Assembly (NCBI RefSeq): GCF_014302995.1
Contig: NZ_CP060295.1
Span: 3,587,501 to 3,651,500 of the forward strand
Origin: Variovorax sp. PAMC26660
GTDB taxonomy: Bacteria; Pseudomonadota; Gammaproteobacteria; Burkholderiales; Burkholderiaceae_C
Direction of reading: 5' to 3'
Length of the DNA stretch: 64,000 nucleotides
Every line of letters starts with the position of its first letter. The first letter of the stretch is position 1. The notes under the pieces were generated by a model. The model saw only the letters and a program-made list of their open reading frames with translations. It was not told the DNA's origin and ran no database searches. Shown here in pieces: positions 6,356 to 15,592 of this stretch. Made by a program: the position numbers and the translations under genes.

Positions 6356-8368
6356 TCAGGCGGTTGCCAGTGCCGGGCGCGCCAGGCGCAGGGCATGCAT
6401 CCAGGCGCGGCGCAGCACGGCCGGCGAACGCGATTCCTCGGGAATCAGCAGGAAGCCGCGGTCGCGCAGCGTGGTGCCCAGCGCGATCTGGCTGGTCAGC
6501 ACGGTCAGCGGAATCGCCAGCAGCAGCGGCAGGCCGACAGGCATGAGCCAGATCAGTGCGCTCGGGTCGATCATTGCGACACCCACGGCCAGCGCGGCAA
6601 TCACCAGCGACATCGGTGCCAGTTGCGCGGCAGCGATCTTCCACGGCACAGCAGCGGCTTCACGCGGGGGCGACTTCCAGTCGAGCTTGATGCCGGTGAG
6701 GGCCACGACCACGAACAGCGAGTGGGCCAGCATGCGCACCGGAGCCTGCACGATGGCAAGGCCGCTTTCGAGCACCGAGCTCTTCACCAGGCCCCACACA
6801 CCGCCGTACTGGCGTTGCTCGCCGCGCATCAGCACGGCAGCGATGCCCAGCACGCGCGGCAGGAACAACAGGCACAGGGTCCAGACCCACAGACCAGCCA
6901 GTTCGGCGGGCAGCACGCTCCAGCTCGACACGAGGCTGGAACCGCTGAGCCACAGGGCCGTGCCCAGCGTCAGGAACGCGAGCCACAGCGGCGCCGAGGC
7001 GTAAGCCATGGTGCCGGTCACGAACATCGCGCGGTGCACCGGGTGAATGCCGGGCTCGGCCATCAGGCGGGCGTTTTGCAGGTTGCCCTGGCACCAGCGG
7101 CGGTCGCGTTGCAGTTCGGCCAGCAGGTCCGGCGGTTGTTGCTCGTAGCTGCCGACCAGGTCGGACACCAGCCACACGTTGTAGCCGGCACGGCGCATCA
7201 GCGCGGCTTCGACGAAGTCGTGCGACATGATGCCGCCCGACATGCCGCCGGTGCCCTTGATCGGGGCCAGCGCGCAATGCTTCATGAAGGGCTCGACGCG
7301 GATGATCGCGTTGTGGCCCCAGTAGTGTGATTCGCCCAGTTGCCAGAACTGCATGCCCAGTGTGAACAGGCGGCCCGTCACGCGGGAAGCGAATTGCTGT
7401 GCGCGGGCATGCAGCGTGACGTGGCCGATGGCCTGCGTCGCGGTCTGGATGATGCCGGCGGTGGGGTTGGCTTCCATCAGCTTGACCATCGAGGTCAGGC
7501 AGTCGCCGCTCATCACCGAGTCGGCGTCGAGCACGACCATGTAGCGGTAGTCCTTGCCCCAGCGGCGGCAGAAGTCGGCCACGTTGCCGGCCTTGCGGTG
7601 CGTGCGGCGGGTGCGCAGGCGGTAGTACACCTCGACCTGCGGCTGGTTCGGGCTTTCGGCCAGGGCGGCGCGAAGGTCTTCCCAGGCGGCGCGCTCGGCG
7701 GCGGCGGTGGCGGGTGCGTAGCTGTCGGACAGCACGAACACGTCGAACTGCTTCGCATGGCCGGTGGAGGCGACCGATTCGCAGGTGGCGCGCAGGCCGG
7801 CGAACACCGTGGCAACGTCTTCGTTGCAGATCGGCATGATGATCGCGGTGCGTGCTTCGGGGTTCATCGGGTGGTTGACGACCTGCTTGGCCGACAGCGC
7901 GTGCTTGTCACCGCGCACCGAGACGTAGAAGCCCATGAGCGCGGTCACGAAACCGGTCACGACCCAGCCCGACAGCAGGCCGTACAGGCCGATCTGGCCG
8001 TATTCGAGCCAGATGTTGTCGTAGTCGGGTTGCACGCTGGCGAACAGCACCGAAGCGATCACGGTGCTCAGCACGGTGAGCAGCATGAACGCGAGGCGGC
8101 GTTGTGCCGCGGCGCGCTGCCAAGGCTGCTTGACCTGCTGGGCGGCTTGGACGCTGGCGTCTTCGGCCGCGGGGCCCGCGCCGAGCTTGACCAGTGCGGC
8201 GGTGCCCAGGCTGTTCCAGAAACCGCGCCAGGGGCGGGGCGTCATCGAACCGCGATTGACCGGGGGAGCCGTGACCGCGTTGGGATGGCGTTCTTCACGC
8301 ACCGGGCTGCGGTGCGAAAAGTCGGCCTCGGCCAGAACATTCAGTTGCGAAAAGTCGTTTGGCTTCAT
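6356..8368 (-). CDS. opgH: Glucan biosynthesis glucosyltransferase OpgH (MdoH)
   Basis: An inner-membrane family 2 glycosyltransferase that polymerises the beta-1,2 backbone of osmoregulated periplasmic glucans from UDP-glucose. The 670-residue protein has two membrane segments after a soluble N terminus, the catalytic domain with DADSVMSGD, GGIMSHD and the processive QRDRRW motif followed by CQGNLQ, then a cluster of C-terminal membrane segments. It is shorter than the enterobacterial protein (about 850 residues). ATG 8368 is chosen over the extension to 8593; the translation from MKPNDFSQLN looks native, although the Shine-Dalgarno is weak. The usual partner opgG is not adjacent. A sigma-54 promoter and a GlrR-type site lie upstream. 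Confidence 0.93.
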   Translation of the reverse strand: MKPNDFSQLNVLAEADFSHRSPVREERHPNAVTAPPVNRGSMTPRPWRGFWNSLGTAALVKLGAGPAAEDASVQAAQQVKQPWQRAAAQRRLAFMLLTVLSTVIASVLFASVQPDYDNIWLEYGQIGLYGLLSGWVVTGFVTALMGFYVSVRGDKHALSAKQVVNHPMNPEARTAIIMPICNEDVATVFAGLRATCESVASTGHAKQFDVFVLSDSYAPATAAAERAAWEDLRAALAESPNQPQVEVYYRLRTRRTHRKAGNVADFCRRWGKDYRYMVVLDADSVMSGDCLTSMVKLMEANPTAGIIQTATQAIGHVTLHARAQQFASRVTGRLFTLGMQFWQLGESHYWGHNAIIRVEPFMKHCALAPIKGTGGMSGGIMSHDFVEAALMRRAGYNVWLVSDLVGSYEQQPPDLLAELQRDRRWCQGNLQNARLMAEPGIHPVHRAMFVTGTMAYASAPLWLAFLTLGTALWLSGSSLVSSWSVLPAELAGLWVWTLCLLFLPRVLGIAAVLMRGEQRQYGGVWGLVKSSVLESGLAIVQAPVRMLAHSLFVVVALTGIKLDWKSPPREAAAVPWKIAAAQLAPMSLVIAALAVGVAMIDPSALIWLMPVGLPLLLAIPLTVLTSQIALGTTLRDRGFLLIPEESRSPAVLRRAWMHALRLARPALATA

Positions 8369-8589
8369 GCGATTTACCAACGTTGCTTGTCGAGGGAAGG
8401 GGTGTCGCCAATGGCAGGAAGGCGCTTGAAGACGCAATCCGTTGCGGAGCCGCCAGCGCTTGCGAGCGCGGCCAGCGAATGGCCCGCGGCACGGGGCCGC
8501 GAGGGGGAAAACTGCTTTTGACGCAGGCCGTCGCGCTGCTGGCGCAGTGCGAAAGATGGGCTGGTGAGTGCTGTCATGCCAGTACAGGG

Positions 8590-8604
8590 GCAAACCCTGT
8601 GCCA
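8590..8604 (-). promoter_or_regulatory. Sigma-54 (-24/-12) promoter reading toward opgH
   Basis: On the minus strand the sequence is TGGCAC-AGGGT-TTGC, with the invariant GG and GC exactly ten bases apart, matching the sigma-54 consensus (TGGCAC-N5-TTGC). It reads toward opgH, 222 bp upstream of the start codon. The next gene upstream encodes a sigma-54-dependent activator (GlrR). Confidence 0.75.
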
Positions 8605-8698
8605 GGCTGGAAAAACGCTTTCAGATCAACGACTTGGGATGATCTGGAAGTCGTTTCGGGGGATCGGGCCGGCCGGAAGGCCTCAAAACCCCTGTTTT

Positions 8699-8716
8699 TG
8701 TCGCCGAATCCCGACA
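8699..8716. promoter_or_regulatory. Candidate GlrR upstream activating site
   Basis: TGTC-N10-GACA, an exact match to the binding consensus reported for GlrR at enterobacterial targets. It lies about 95 bp upstream of the -24 element, a normal distance for an enhancer-type activator site. Confidence 0.6.
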
Positions 8717-8770
8717 AGCCTTGGGGGCTGGTCGGGAATGGCCTTTTAAATCAACAGCTTAGGTGCGTCG

Positions 8771-10155
<1,385 letters not shown>

Positions 10156-10159
<4 letters not shown>

Positions 10160-10824
10160 GGGCTTGGTTTTGCTCCGTTGGTTGTCGGTGCGGGTGTTGC
10201 TGCGGGCGCCGGCGTGCTGGCGGGCCGCGCGAAGCTGCGCTCGATGGCGCGCAGGGCTTCGATGCGGTCGTTGAGCTGGTCGATGCGGCGCTGGCTGTCG
10301 CGTTGCTGCTGCACCTGCTTGTCGCGGTCGTCCTCGACGCGGCGCTGCTCGATGTAGCGCGCGGCCAGCGCACGGGCGAGCGGCTGCAATGCCTGTGCTT
10401 CGGGCGCGGGGTTGGCGATCACGCGCTGCAGCAGGCCCAACGCACGCGCGAGGTCGGCCGGCACGCGCGTCTGCGAGAGCAACAGCGCCAACTGCATCTG
10501 GGCGGTGGGCGAATCGCCGGGGTCGCCGACGCGTGCGATCTCGGCGCTCAGGTCGGCGCCGTTCAGCGGGCGCACCTTGTCGGCGTACGACAGCATGGCC
10601 GCCAGCGGCCCCTGGGTCATCAGCGTGAAGATCGATGCCGGCTGCGTGGCGGGCGCCCTGGGCTCGGCCTCGACGGGCATCACGCGCGGCAGGACGGTGG
10701 GCGGCGGCAGGGCATCGGCTTCGGCGGGCGGCTTCGGCTGGATGGCACAGGCGGCCAGCAGCAGGACGAAAGGCACGGTCATCGCCCCGGCGAAAGTGGA
10801 ACTGCGGACGAACGAAAAAGACAT
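10156..10824 (-). CDS. QseG-like outer-membrane lipoprotein of the Glr system
   Basis: A 222-residue protein starting MSFSFVRSSTFAGAM, with a lipobox LLAAC, then a proline/alanine-rich linker, a helical region and a C-terminal coiled-coil-like segment (EQRRVEDDRDKQVQQQRDSQ). Its position between histidine kinase and response regulator matches qseG in the enterobacterial glrK-qseG-glrR operon, where the lipoprotein stimulates the kinase. Sequence similarity to QseG cannot be judged by eye, so the function is inferred from synteny. The ATG at 10824 is preferred over the upstream extension because it places a normal signal peptide at the N terminus. Confidence 0.7.
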
Positions 10825-10876
10825 GGGTTGAAGAAGGGGACGCGAGGCGGTGTTTCGGATGGGGCGCGGTGAGTGC

Positions 10877-12304
10877 TCAGGCTGTGCGCGGCAATTCGAT
10901 GCGAAAGCGTGCACCGGGCCCGTCAGGCAGCAAGGTGATACGGCCCCCGTGGGCTGCAATGTACTCCTGCACGATGGAAAGTCCGATGCCGGTGCCTTTC
11001 ACCGTGTGCTCGGGCTGGCGCTCGCCGCGAAAGAAGGGCTCGAAGATCCGGTCGCGGTCGCCCTCTGCGATGCCCGGGCCGGCGTCGTTGACGTCGATGT
11101 AGACCGCGTCCGGCGTGCCCGACACCGCCAGCGTGATGACGCCGCCGCTGGCTGAAAAGCGGATCGCGTTGGACAGCAGGTTGGCAATGGCCGTGCCGAG
11201 CTTGGCGCGGTCGACCGTGGTCGTGATCGGCTCGCCCTCGGCGCGCACGCGCAGCCCGTGCGACTGCCACTGCAGGCGCTGTGCCTCGATCTGTTCCTCG
11301 ATCAGCGGCAGCAGCTCGGTGCGTTCGCGGCGCAGCTCGCGCGCCTCGAAGGCGGCGGCGTTGAAGCGCAGCAGCGCCTCGATCTGCCCCTGCAGCGACA
11401 CCGTGTTCTGCTGCAGGATCTGCGCGACTTCGAGCTGCGCCGGGTTCAGCGGGCCGGTCACGCCGTCTTCGAGCAGCGAGACGCCTTCGCGCAGCGCGGC
11501 CAGCGGGGTCTTGAGTTCGTGCGACACGTGGCGCAGAAAGCGCGCCTTGTCGGCGTCCAGCTCGGTCAGGCGCAGCCGCAGCCATTCGAGCTGCTGCGAC
11601 ACGCGCCGAACGTCGGCCGGGCCACGAATGTCGATGGGTTCGTCGAGCCGGTTCTGGCCCAGGCCGACGATGGCGTTTTCGAGCCGTTTGAAAGGCCGGG
11701 CGAGCCAGATGCCGAAAGCCAGCGCCAGCACCACCGCCAGCACGCTGGCAGCGACCACTTCGCGCATCAGCCGGCGGCGTGCGTTCTCGATGCGCTTGGC
11801 CAGCGCATCGTTCTGCGTTTCGATCAGGAACTGCGCCTGCTGCGCGAGGTTGGTGTTGAGCGCGTCGAGTTCGCGGAACTGCATCGCCATCGTGCTTTCG
11901 CGGGCCAGGGCGCTGTCGGCGTTGCCGCTCATCAGGCCCTCGATCACGCCGAGCTGCGTGCGCCACATCTCGATGCCGGCGGGTGCCAGGCCGTTCTTTT
12001 CAAGGCGCTCGAGCACCTGGTGCGCCTCGCGCGCTGCGTCGTCGAAGCGGCGGCGCAGCACGGCGTCGTTCAGCACCAAAGACTGGCGCCCGGCACGTTC
12101 CATCGCCGCGCTGCGCTCGGCCAGCGACTGGGACGCGCCCGACAGCCGCAGCGCGCGCGCGGCCGCGTCGCGGCTTTGCGTCATCAGCACGTCGTACTGG
12201 AGCACGGAGCGCAGGGCCACGCCCACCAGCAGCGCGGTAATCAGCAGGAACGCGAACAGCAGGAGCTGCTGGAACGAGCCCCGTATGGATGGCCGCTTCG
12301 CCAT
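10877..12304 (-). CDS. glrK: Sensor histidine kinase GlrK (QseE)
   Basis: A 475-residue membrane kinase: N-terminal membrane segment (about residues 12-32), a helical periplasmic domain, a second segment (VVAASVLAVVLALAFGIWL), a HAMP linker, the H-box FLRHVSHELKTPLAAL, and an ATPase domain with the N-box (NLLSNAIRFS), DAGPGI and GTGIGLSI. It phosphorylates GlrR. Its ATG overlaps the miaB stop (ATGA), so it is transcribed with miaB; the lipoprotein and glrR follow. Confidence 0.9.
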   Translation of the reverse strand: MAKRPSIRGSFQQLLLFAFLLITALLVGVALRSVLQYDVLMTQSRDAAARALRLSGASQSLAERSAAMERAGRQSLVLNDAVLRRRFDDAAREAHQVLERLEKNGLAPAGIEMWRTQLGVIEGLMSGNADSALARESTMAMQFRELDALNTNLAQQAQFLIETQNDALAKRIENARRRLMREVVAASVLAVVLALAFGIWLARPFKRLENAIVGLGQNRLDEPIDIRGPADVRRVSQQLEWLRLRLTELDADKARFLRHVSHELKTPLAALREGVSLLEDGVTGPLNPAQLEVAQILQQNTVSLQGQIEALLRFNAAAFEARELRRERTELLPLIEEQIEAQRLQWQSHGLRVRAEGEPITTTVDRAKLGTAIANLLSNAIRFSASGGVITLAVSGTPDAVYIDVNDAGPGIAEGDRDRIFEPFFRGERQPEHTVKGTGIGLSIVQEYIAAHGGRITLLPDGPGARFRIELPRTA

Positions 12305-13665
12305 CAGTGGGCGAGCGCGGCCGGGGCTGCTGCCATCGACGATTCGCTGGTCGGCACTTCGCCGCGCAGCGTGTACGCCAGCGAGCGCGTGATGCGCAGG
12401 TCGGTCATCTGGCCGACGAGGCGCGCGTCGCCCTCGAAGTTGACGACGCGGTTGCAGGCGGTGCGGCCCATCAGCTCGTTCGCATCCTTGCGCGAGGCGC
12501 CCTCGACCAGCACGCGCTGGGTGCTGCCCACCAGCGCCTGGCCGAAGCGCTTGACGTTGCCGTCGATCACCGCCTGCAGCGTGTGCAGCCGCGCGAGCTT
12601 CACTTCGTGCGGCGTGTCGTCCTGCAGTTGCGCGGCCGGCGTGCCGGGGCGCGGGCTGAAGATGAAGCTGAAGCTGTTGTCGAACTGGCAGTCGTCGATG
12701 AGCTTCATCATCTTGGCGAAGTCTTCGTCGGTCTCGCCGGGGAAGCCGACGATGAAGTCGCTGGAGAGAGCGAGTTCAGGGCGGATGGCGCGCAGCTTGC
12801 GCACCGTGCTCTTGTATTCCATGGCGGTGTAGCCGCGCTTCATGGCCATCAGGATGCGGTCGCTGCCGTGCTGCACGGGCAGGTGCAGATGGCTCACGAG
12901 CTGCGGCACCTTGGCGTAGGCCTCGATCAGTCGGGGCGTGAACTCGTTCGGATGGCTGGTGGTGTAGCGGATGCGCTCGATGCCGGGGATCTCGGCCACG
13001 TACTCGATCAGCAGCGCGAAGTCGGCGATCTCGGCGGTGTCGCCCATCTTGCCGCGGTAGGCATTCACGTTCTGGCCCAGCAGCGTGATCTCGCGCACGC
13101 CCTGGTCGGCCAGGCCGGCAATTTCGACCAGCACGTCGTCGAGCGGGCGGTTCACTTCCTCGCCGCGCGTGTAGGGCACCACGCAATAGCTGCAGTACTT
13201 GGAGCAGCCTTCCATGATCGACACGAAGGCGGTCGCGCCGTCGACGCGCGCGGGCGGCAGGTGATCGAACTTCTCGATTTCGGGGAAGCTGATGTCGACC
13301 TGCGGGCGGTTCAGGCGCTCGCGGTCATTCAGCATTTCGGGCAGGCGGTGCAGGGTCTGCGGGCCGAACACGATGTCGACGTAAGGTGCGCGCGCAATGA
13401 TGGCCGCGCCTTCCTGGCTCGCGACGCAACCGCCCACGCCGATCTTCACGCCCTTGGCCTTCAGGTGCTTCACGCGGCCGAGGTCGGAGAACACTTTTTC
13501 CTGCGCCTTCTCGCGCACCGAACAGGTGTTGAACAGGATGAGGTCGGCCTCGTCCACGTTCTGCGTGGGCTCGTAGCCCTGTGCGGCGTGCAGTACGTCG
13601 GCCATCTTGTCCGAGTCGTACTCGTTCATCTGGCAGCCGAAGGTCTTGATGAATACTTTTTTCAT
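12304..13665 (-). CDS. miaB: tRNA-2-methylthio-N6-isopentenyladenosine synthase MiaB
   Basis: A radical-SAM methylthiotransferase that converts i6A37 to ms2i6A37 in tRNAs. The 453-residue protein has the auxiliary-cluster cysteines C11 ([15 protein letters not shown]), C48 and C80, the radical-SAM motif CSKYCSYC (C154, C158, C161), and a C-terminal TRAM domain. The inner ATG at 13665 ([11 protein letters not shown]) is preferred over the one at 13680, because AAAGAG lies at a suitable distance. First gene of the operon with glrK, the lipoprotein and glrR. Confidence 0.95.
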
Positions 13666-14199: not shown

Positions 14200-14386
14200 G
14201 GGGTATATCCAGAGGCTGTGGAGCGGGCGATTTTAACGACGGGGTGGCTGTCGGTCGCGCCGGACACAGTGGGTTGCAGGCAACGCAGTTCGTTCACTGC
14301 TTTACATTTATTTACGGTGCCCATCGACACGGCGGGGCGGCCACTGCTCCAATAGCTGCTGTCAGCCCAAAGTGCACAAGAACCCC

Positions 14387-15592
14387 ATGAAAACAAATGT
14401 TGCCGTTGCCCTTGCGGGTGTGTTGATCGTAGCCGTCGCGGGCGGGTGGTGGAGCCTATCCGGCAACAAGCTTGCCGCGAAAAACGACAAGGCCCCGACC
14501 ACCGCCGGTGGCGGCGCGCCTGCGCTCGTGACGCTGGCTACGGCCGAAAAGCAGGACGTGCCGGTGACGGTGCAGGTCAATGGCAGCGTGGTGTCCCTCA
14601 ACAGCGTCGACCTGCGCCCGCAGGTCACGAACACGGTGAGCGCGGTGCATGTGAAGGAAGGGCAGTTCGTCAAGGCGGGCCAGTTGCTGTTCACGCTGGA
14701 CGACCGCAACGACCAGGCCAACCTGGCGCGCGCCCGGGCCCAGCAGCAAAAGGACGAGGCCACCATGGCCGACCTGGAGCGCCAGTACAAGCGCAGCCAG
14801 GACCTGGTGGCGCAGAACTTCATTGCCAAGAGCGCGGCCGACGCCACGCTGTCGCAGCTCGAAGCGCAACGCGCCGCCGTCGCGGCCGACCGCGCCGCCG
14901 TGCAGTCGGCACAGGTGGCGCTGGGCTACGCCACGCTGCGCGCGCCGATTGCCGGGCGCATCGGCGCCGTCAACATCTACCCCGGCACGCTGGTGCAGCC
15001 GACGCTGTCGCTGGTCACGGTCACGCAGCTCGACCCGATCGCCGTGAGCTTCCCGGTGCCCGAGGGCAACCTGCAAGACCTGCTGGCCGCCGCGCGCACC
15101 CGCTCGAAGGTCGAGGCCGTGGTCACCGGACGCAAGGAGCCGCTGAACGGCACGCTCGACTTCGTCGACAACACGGTCGATCCGCAGATCGGCACCGTGC
15201 GCGCCAAGGCTGTGTTCAGCAACGCCGACCAGAGCCTCTGGCCCGGCCAGTTCGTCGGCACGCGCATCACGGTGCGCACGCTCGACGGCGCCACGGTGGT
15301 GCCGGCCGCGGCGCTGATGATGCTGGCCGACGGCACGTCGCTCTACGTGGTCGACGAGTCCAGGACCGCCACGCGCCGCAAGGTCAAGACGCTGCACACC
15401 TTCGGCACCAAGGTCGCGGTGAGCGGCGTCGAGCCGGGTGAGCAGGTGGTGATCGAGGGCAGCCAGAACGTGCGGCCCGGCGGCAAGGTCCGCGTCGATG
15501 CCAAGGCGCCGGCTGTGCCCAACGGCACCACGGGCGTGACGCCCGGCAGCGCCGCTTCGTCGGACGCCAAGCCCGTGCGGGAACGCGCATGA
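14387..15592 (+). CDS. RND efflux periplasmic adaptor (membrane fusion protein)
   Basis: A 401-residue MdtA/AcrA-type adaptor. It has an N-terminal hydrophobic anchor without a lipobox cysteine, a lipoyl-type segment (VSAVHVKEGQFVKAGQLLFTLDD), a helical hairpin of heptad-like sequence, the second lipoyl half (LRAPIAGRIGAVNIYPGTLV) and a beta-barrel/membrane-proximal domain. It links the inner-membrane pump to an outer-membrane channel. The pump gene follows with an ATGA overlap. No outer-membrane factor and no local regulator gene is adjacent. The ATG at 14387 is preferred over a GTG at 14372. Confidence 0.9.
   Translation: MKTNVAVALAGVLIVAVAGGWWSLSGNKLAAKNDKAPTTAGGGAPALVTLATAEKQDVPVTVQVNGSVVSLNSVDLRPQVTNTVSAVHVKEGQFVKAGQLLFTLDDRNDQANLARARAQQQKDEATMADLERQYKRSQDLVAQNFIAKSAADATLSQLEAQRAAVAADRAAVQSAQVALGYATLRAPIAGRIGAVNIYPGTLVQPTLSLVTVTQLDPIAVSFPVPEGNLQDLLAAARTRSKVEAVVTGRKEPLNGTLDFVDNTVDPQIGTVRAKAVFSNADQSLWPGQFVGTRITVRTLDGATVVPAAALMMLADGTSLYVVDESRTATRRKVKTLHTFGTKVAVSGVEPGEQVVIEGSQNVRPGGKVRVDAKAPAVPNGTTGVTPGSAASSDAKPVRERA

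Follow-up and report, generated by a model that had tools for sequence, protein, structure and literature searches.

A candidate GlrR/sigma-54 promoter at the end of glrR and a predicted leaderless small ORF-opgH operon in Variovorax

The classic target of GlrR is a small RNA. In E. coli, according to PMC6075780, the regulator acts on glmY and rpoE; three GlrR sites are described at glmY, and IHF helps at its promoter. The enterobacterial QseE/QseG/QseF system (GlrK/GlrR) joins a kinase, a lipoprotein and the regulator in one cluster and works through a sigma-54 promoter preceded by more than one TGTCN10GACA palindrome (PMC6075780, PMC8745638), the sequence given as the QseF consensus in PMC8745638. 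Two further systems serve as points of comparison. One is the opgGH operon, which is linked to osmoregulated periplasmic glucans. The other is the class of mRNAs that are leaderless by nature, which have been mapped in Sinorhizobium among others (PMC3616915) and in which the AUG lies at or beside the 5′ end.

Here we analyze a locus on the minus strand of the window (the whole stretch of 64,000 nucleotides) that shares features with all three. As in the enterobacterial system, a sensor histidine kinase in the glrK position (10877..12304; Pfam HisKA and HATPase_c), a lipoprotein-like ORF in the qseG position (10156..10959; lipobox-like LLLAAC after an internal ATG, noted by eye) and a sigma-54 response regulator (8771..10159; Pfam receiver and Sigma54_activat domains, GAFTDA loop) share one cluster. 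The first two were identified by position, neither having a specific family model: no NCBIfam model among those listed scored above its cut-off for the kinase, and no NCBIfam or Pfam family matched the lipoprotein-like ORF. The regulator is 97% identical to a V. boronicumulans protein in sequence comparison. Its best NCBIfam model out of 113 is NF011695 (GlrR) at 623.1 bits, below the cut-off of 763, and we therefore keep the name at ‘GlrR-like’. Downstream lie an ORF of 67 amino acids (8374..8577, stop included), the predicted leaderless first cistron, recognized by its homologs and dN/dS, and opgH, the glucan glucosyltransferase gene (6356..8368; NCBIfam NF003960, 1258.6 bits, above the equivalog cut-off of 829), which starts 5 nt past the stop of the small ORF. 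The reading that we favor as a whole, with a probability of about 0.72, is that GlrR and sigma-54 would drive a leaderless small ORF-opgH operon from the end of glrR.

Compared with enterobacteria, the predicted target would be opgH and the small ORF instead of glmY and rpoE, and it follows glrR rather than preceding the kinase gene. There are two sites instead of three, and the regulator carries GAFTDA. GlmY (RF00128) was not found in the own genome, with 150 of 277 candidates scored and the E. coli control positive. The proposal of the initial annotation that the output differs from the classic glmY gains support both from this result and from the comparison below. The GAFTDA loop occurs in 44 of 81 GlrR sequences, the window included, and GAFTGA in 29 (8 unread). 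As far as PMC4641369 goes, GAFTDA is listed among the variants that would keep activation, and Desulfovibrio has a GAFTDA activator with listed targets. The variant and the leaderless design do not always go together, since locus L069 has GAFTGA. Both GAFTDA in place of GAFTGA and the score below the enterobacterial GlrR cut-off count against the favored reading.

The sigma-54 promoter TGGCACAGGGTTTGC (8590..8604, minus strand) is an exact match with exact GG-N10-GC spacing, just as the initial annotation had read it. The promoter-proximal GlrR-type site TGTCGGGATTCGGCGACA (8699..8716, minus strand) is an exact palindrome equal to the reported QseF consensus TGTCN10GACA, and the promoter lies 94 bp downstream of it (about 95 in the initial annotation). 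A distal site that was absent from that annotation, TGTCGCTGAGTAGCGACG (8766..8783, minus strand), has one mismatch, overlaps the glrR stop codon and lies 67 bp upstream of the proximal site. Two sites of the TGTCN10GACA type thus precede the promoter, the proximal one exact and the distal one carrying a single mismatch. Besides the GG-N10-GC element, a sigma-54 promoter is indicated by its conservation and by the presence of rpoN in the 7.39-Mb own genome (G000). Consensus searching revealed no sigma-70-like promoter within 8300-8900.

Taken singly, either motif is within chance in 64 kb. Allowing at most one mismatch, the promoter box has 9 matches in the window (8.76 expected) and the palindrome 28 (20.45 expected), a number reached in 8 of 100 shuffles. 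Genome-wide, there are 24 exact copies of the promoter box versus 16 for a reversed-pattern control, and TGTCG-N8-CGACA gives 62 strand matches (31 places, both strands) versus 44. In 7.39 Mb of genome there is one exact combination of site and promoter, and the control yields none; with a single such pair, we rejected a larger GlrR regulon in this genome. A looser combined pattern gave two hits, that of the window and G000:C1:6058655-6058779; the latter was taken as chance because the control also gives two. Our decision that the motif pair is real was made on the grounds of conservation.

The comparison set consisted of the best 80 glrR loci from related genome contigs (more exist), 50 of which have opgH downstream of glrR. 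A sigma-54 match with a score of at least 13 directly follows glrR in 60 of these 80 loci, including 48 of the 50 with opgH; the 20 loci without such a score within 450 bp after glrR were excluded from the site-spacing, start-codon and Shine-Dalgarno counts. L025 (Polaromonas) and L045 (Rubrivivax) have both glrR and opgH without a sigma-54 match above the threshold of 13, and they count against the full generality of the promoter and against the favored reading. Together with the window, there are 61 promoter-bearing loci. In 59 of them, a proximal site with no more than one mismatch lies 60-124 bp upstream of the promoter, while the chance expectation is about 2.4% per locus if equal base frequencies are assumed. 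Thus, both boxes of the initial annotation proved to be conserved in close relatives. The proximal site is 92-95 bp from the promoter in 46 of the 59 loci, and both sites are present in 51 of 61, spaced by exactly 67 bp in 40 of the 51 (ties between equally good positions were settled towards 94 and 67 bp). The architecture of two sites 67 bp apart and a promoter 94 bp further on is maintained across genera.

Broader searches were also performed. A pattern search of 200 family genomes matched 45 of them. Among 30 matching loci examined, a glrR-like gene lies upstream in all 12 with the TGGCA[C/T] box, although in one of these (L156) the match has an identity of just 52% and its end is about 940 bp distant; among the 18 loci without this box a glrR-like gene was found in one (L151), the match in L141 being only 36%. 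A simpler pattern matched 109 of 300 order genomes, and for the 29 loci new from that search (L102-L130) a glrR-like gene is present in the stretch for five, so that most order-wide matches to the simple pattern look like chance. Related loci are not statistically independent, and neither are the two locus collections, as some species occur in both (L035/L115 and L076/L144 look alike).

Would a different sigma-54 activator use these sites? The regulator score below the curated cut-off leaves some room for this idea. Yet the element adjoins glrR across genera while the downstream genes vary, and the palindrome fits the reported QseF/GlrR consensus, which makes another activator highly improbable. 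We consider instead, as judged from sequence comparison, that the opgH operon is very probably under the control of the neighboring GlrR acting through sigma-54. The direct control of opgH by GlrR proposed in the initial annotation is thus supported by the comparison, whereas the alternative route offered there, through a leader RNA, is not supported, an ORF occupying the supposed leader.

The position of the start codon links the promoter to the first gene. In the window, the ATG of the small ORF begins 13 nt past the -12 C. If sigma-54 transcription starts 12 nt after this C, as we assume, the predicted start is at 8577..8578 (minus strand), with 8578 as +1 by promoter spacing and 8577 as the A of the ATG. 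Because the ATG would then be at +2, the small ORF-opgH mRNA should be leaderless. Fifty promoter-bearing loci contain opgG, opgH or the small ORF (the window and L032 included). An ATG is located 12-15 nt past the C in 46 of them, and at exactly 13 nt in 39, representing four kinds of first gene. In these 46 loci the first gene is the small ORF (20), opgG (23), opgH (2) or a 21-codon ORF (1). The four exceptions without an ATG at +2 (L037, L039, L046 and L079) count against the favored reading. Start codons were also read in 16 hand-picked loci numbered L102 and above, selected because glrR is adjacent and the promoter is close to the consensus; opg genes or the small ORF occur in 12 of these, which stand outside the 46 of 50. 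In a separate BLAST-based count, all 19 small-ORF loci have the ATG at 13 nt, and 22 of 24 opgG loci have it at 12-14 nt. That count entered L078 as opgH and placed L020 at 8 nt because another ATG was met first, and placed L035 at 78 nt because its 21-codon ORF was no reference; direct reading of the start codons gives 13 or 14 nt in all three. In our view, different first genes sharing one start position is a stronger argument than the locus counts.

Shine-Dalgarno pairing is in line with the predicted lack of a leader. Its energy is -3.2 kcal/mol in the window, where no Shine-Dalgarno sequence precedes the start, and the median of the 45 near-start loci, also -3.2 kcal/mol, likewise denotes no strong one. 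The minimum among them (-10.5) means strong anti-Shine-Dalgarno pairing in one or more of these loci, which counts against the favored reading. It is also conceivable that the promoter is real and that transcription starts a few nucleotides up or down, or that an upstream promoter contributes, in which case the mRNA would not be truly leaderless. The start is predicted from spacing alone, and a few loci have the ATG at 12, 14 or 15 nt. Set against this are the exact distance of 13 nt that 39 of 50 loci share across four first-gene kinds and the absence of a sigma-70-like consensus promoter in 8300-8900, and we regard a shifted start as improbable. A start at or beside the ATG, which we favor, would resemble that of the known leaderless mRNAs. 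The difference is that here the arrangement would go with a sigma-54 promoter and persist as one first gene replaces another, the 5′ end being a prediction.

The initial annotation regarded the stretch before opgH as a leader of about 210 nt, possibly acting as a regulatory RNA. This stretch is in fact the 67-codon ORF at 8374-8577. Homologs of the small protein number 78 by single-sequence search and 137 by profile, several of them annotated as hypothetical proteins. A search of 399 family genomes returned 19 matches, 8 weak and 11 strong (E <1e-16); the strong ones belong to three genera (five in the own genus, five in g204 and one in g199). Comparison of 20 small ORFs gives a median dN/dS of 0.40 for pairs with dS >0.1 and a pooled pN/pS of 0.53, with 0.54 in the N-terminal, 0.73 in the middle and 0.34 in the C-terminal part. 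The small ORF is under purifying selection, and selection on amino acids is strongest at the C-terminus. The pooled value and that of the middle part nevertheless count against the favored reading. The protein matches no Pfam family at the cut-off, and AlphaFold gave no confident fold (pLDDT 60, pTM 0.15).

A regulatory RNA leader, or the source of a GlmY-like small RNA controlling opgH post-transcriptionally, would agree with the nature of the classic GlrR target. It might also account for the lower synonymous divergence in the 5′ part of the ORF (pS 0.32 versus 0.42-0.52 elsewhere) and for changes on both sides that keep the pairing in 7 of 33 predicted pairs (12 loci). The covariation term, on the other hand, is -0.02 in the RNA alignment of 12 of the 20 small-ORF loci, no Rfam family matches the stretch, there is a coding signal, and different genes hold the same position in other loci. 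On this basis we rejected the RNA leader, whose probability we put very low.

A more serious alternative, though still an unlikely one, is that the ORF is a mere coupling cistron whose translation opens opgH and whose peptide is inactive. The 5-nt distance to opgH would suit this role. A 21-codon first ORF at +2 takes the place of the small ORF in the Xylophilus-like loci L035 and L115, where its stop overlaps a possible opgH ATG, and in 9 of 14 opgG loci the stop of opgG shares bases with an ATG or GTG, as noted by eye. An inactive peptide is harder to reconcile with the C-terminal selection, with the steady length of 66-70 codons in 20 loci and with the presence of the small ORF in a genome in which opgH was not found. 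This genome, G363 (g199, 2.5 Mb, 92% complete), has glrR, both sites, the promoter (TGGCCC box) and, directly after glrR, the small-ORF homolog (L159 2463-2666); neither opgH nor an MdoG-family gene was found in it at that completeness. The nine other small-ORF genomes searched do contain an MdoG-family gene. The independence of the small ORF from opgH rests on this one 92%-complete genome, which also counts against the favored reading. In the favored reading, the small protein probably has an envelope-related role of its own.

In many other Comamonadaceae opgG occupies the place of the small ORF. Relative to the opgGH operon, many relatives thus have opgG and opgH, while Variovorax shares opgH, has the 67-aa ORF where opgG would be, carries its MdoG-family gene elsewhere and would be under GlrR/sigma-54 control. 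The MdoG-family gene of G000 is about 1.67 Mb away, and the N-terminus of its product looks by eye like a twin-arginine signal, a signal stated of mdoD in the title of a paper cited by PMC10514313. No NCBIfam family matched either MdoG-family protein, so OpgG and OpgD are not distinguishable by NCBIfam.

In more distant loci the promoter element precedes a BON-domain protein (five loci) or a DUF1328-like membrane protein (five loci); Pfam was run on 7 of these 10. Their leaders are about 40-60 nt long, and their Shine-Dalgarno median is -8.5 kcal/mol versus -3.2 in the near-start loci. The DUF1328-like proteins of the Thiobacillus-like loci L056, L060, L061, L062 and L065 (about 6400-6666; Pfam on two of the five) are 55 aa long and have a normal leader. 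The element stays behind glrR whatever gene comes next, from which we conclude that GlrR retains a promoter behind its gene and that the gene served by this promoter changes. The leaderless design appears to accompany the opg operon and the small ORF. A bolder version would see here a plug-in slot in which a leaderless start codon is joined to a GlrR/sigma-54 promoter and the cargo (opgG, opgH or small ORFs) is swapped in evolution, with the 67-aa protein as a true GlrR effector on the envelope, independent of OpgH and kept where opgGH is gone. We offer this only tentatively, at somewhat under even odds.

According to the favored reading, the neighboring kinase would activate GlrR, presumably by phosphorylation, and GlrR would bind both palindromes, which lie 67 bp from each other where its own gene ends. 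Through DNA looping it could then activate sigma-54 RNA polymerase at 8590-8604. Transcription would start at the ATG of the first gene or 1-2 nt from it, producing a leaderless mRNA. The 67-codon ORF, as the first cistron in Variovorax, would probably also feed opgH translation by coupling, and the output would be periplasmic glucan synthesis together with the small protein.

Literature searches, with subscription papers mostly outside their reach, returned no paper with both opgH and GlrR and no report of such control for glucans with sigma-54, GlrR or QseF, for leaderless with sigma-54, or for Variovorax with leaderless; one paper, on c-di-GMP and secretion, contains opgGH together with RpoN. 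If the favored reading is correct, a well-known two-component system gains a different and directly testable output in bacteria other than enterobacteria, with periplasmic glucans replacing the small RNA, and a small gene without an assigned function joins the GlrR pathway. The loci would then form a natural series in which the promoter-to-start-codon arrangement is conserved and the gene behind it changes, making both leaderless translation from sigma-54 promoters and a GlrR role beyond GlmY testable.

Several minor observations concern the surroundings. An inverted repeat, CCCGACCAGCC-CCCAA-GGCTTGTCGGG (8711-8737, minus strand), seen by eye, overlaps the proximal GlrR site and is not followed by a T-run on the minus strand; it might be a hairpin of the glrR transcript or part of the operator. 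A second exact TGTC-N10-GACA lies at 14249-14266 (plus strand). An efflux-type membrane-fusion ORF (14372-15592) begins about 105 bp downstream of it, and the combined site and promoter pattern found no sigma-54 partner for this palindrome. Finally, Rfam gives a weak hit to BcKCsr2, a small RNA of Burkholderia (12285-12408, minus strand; 22.6 bits, gathering threshold 40). It falls where the kinase gene begins, which is the location of glmY in enterobacteria.
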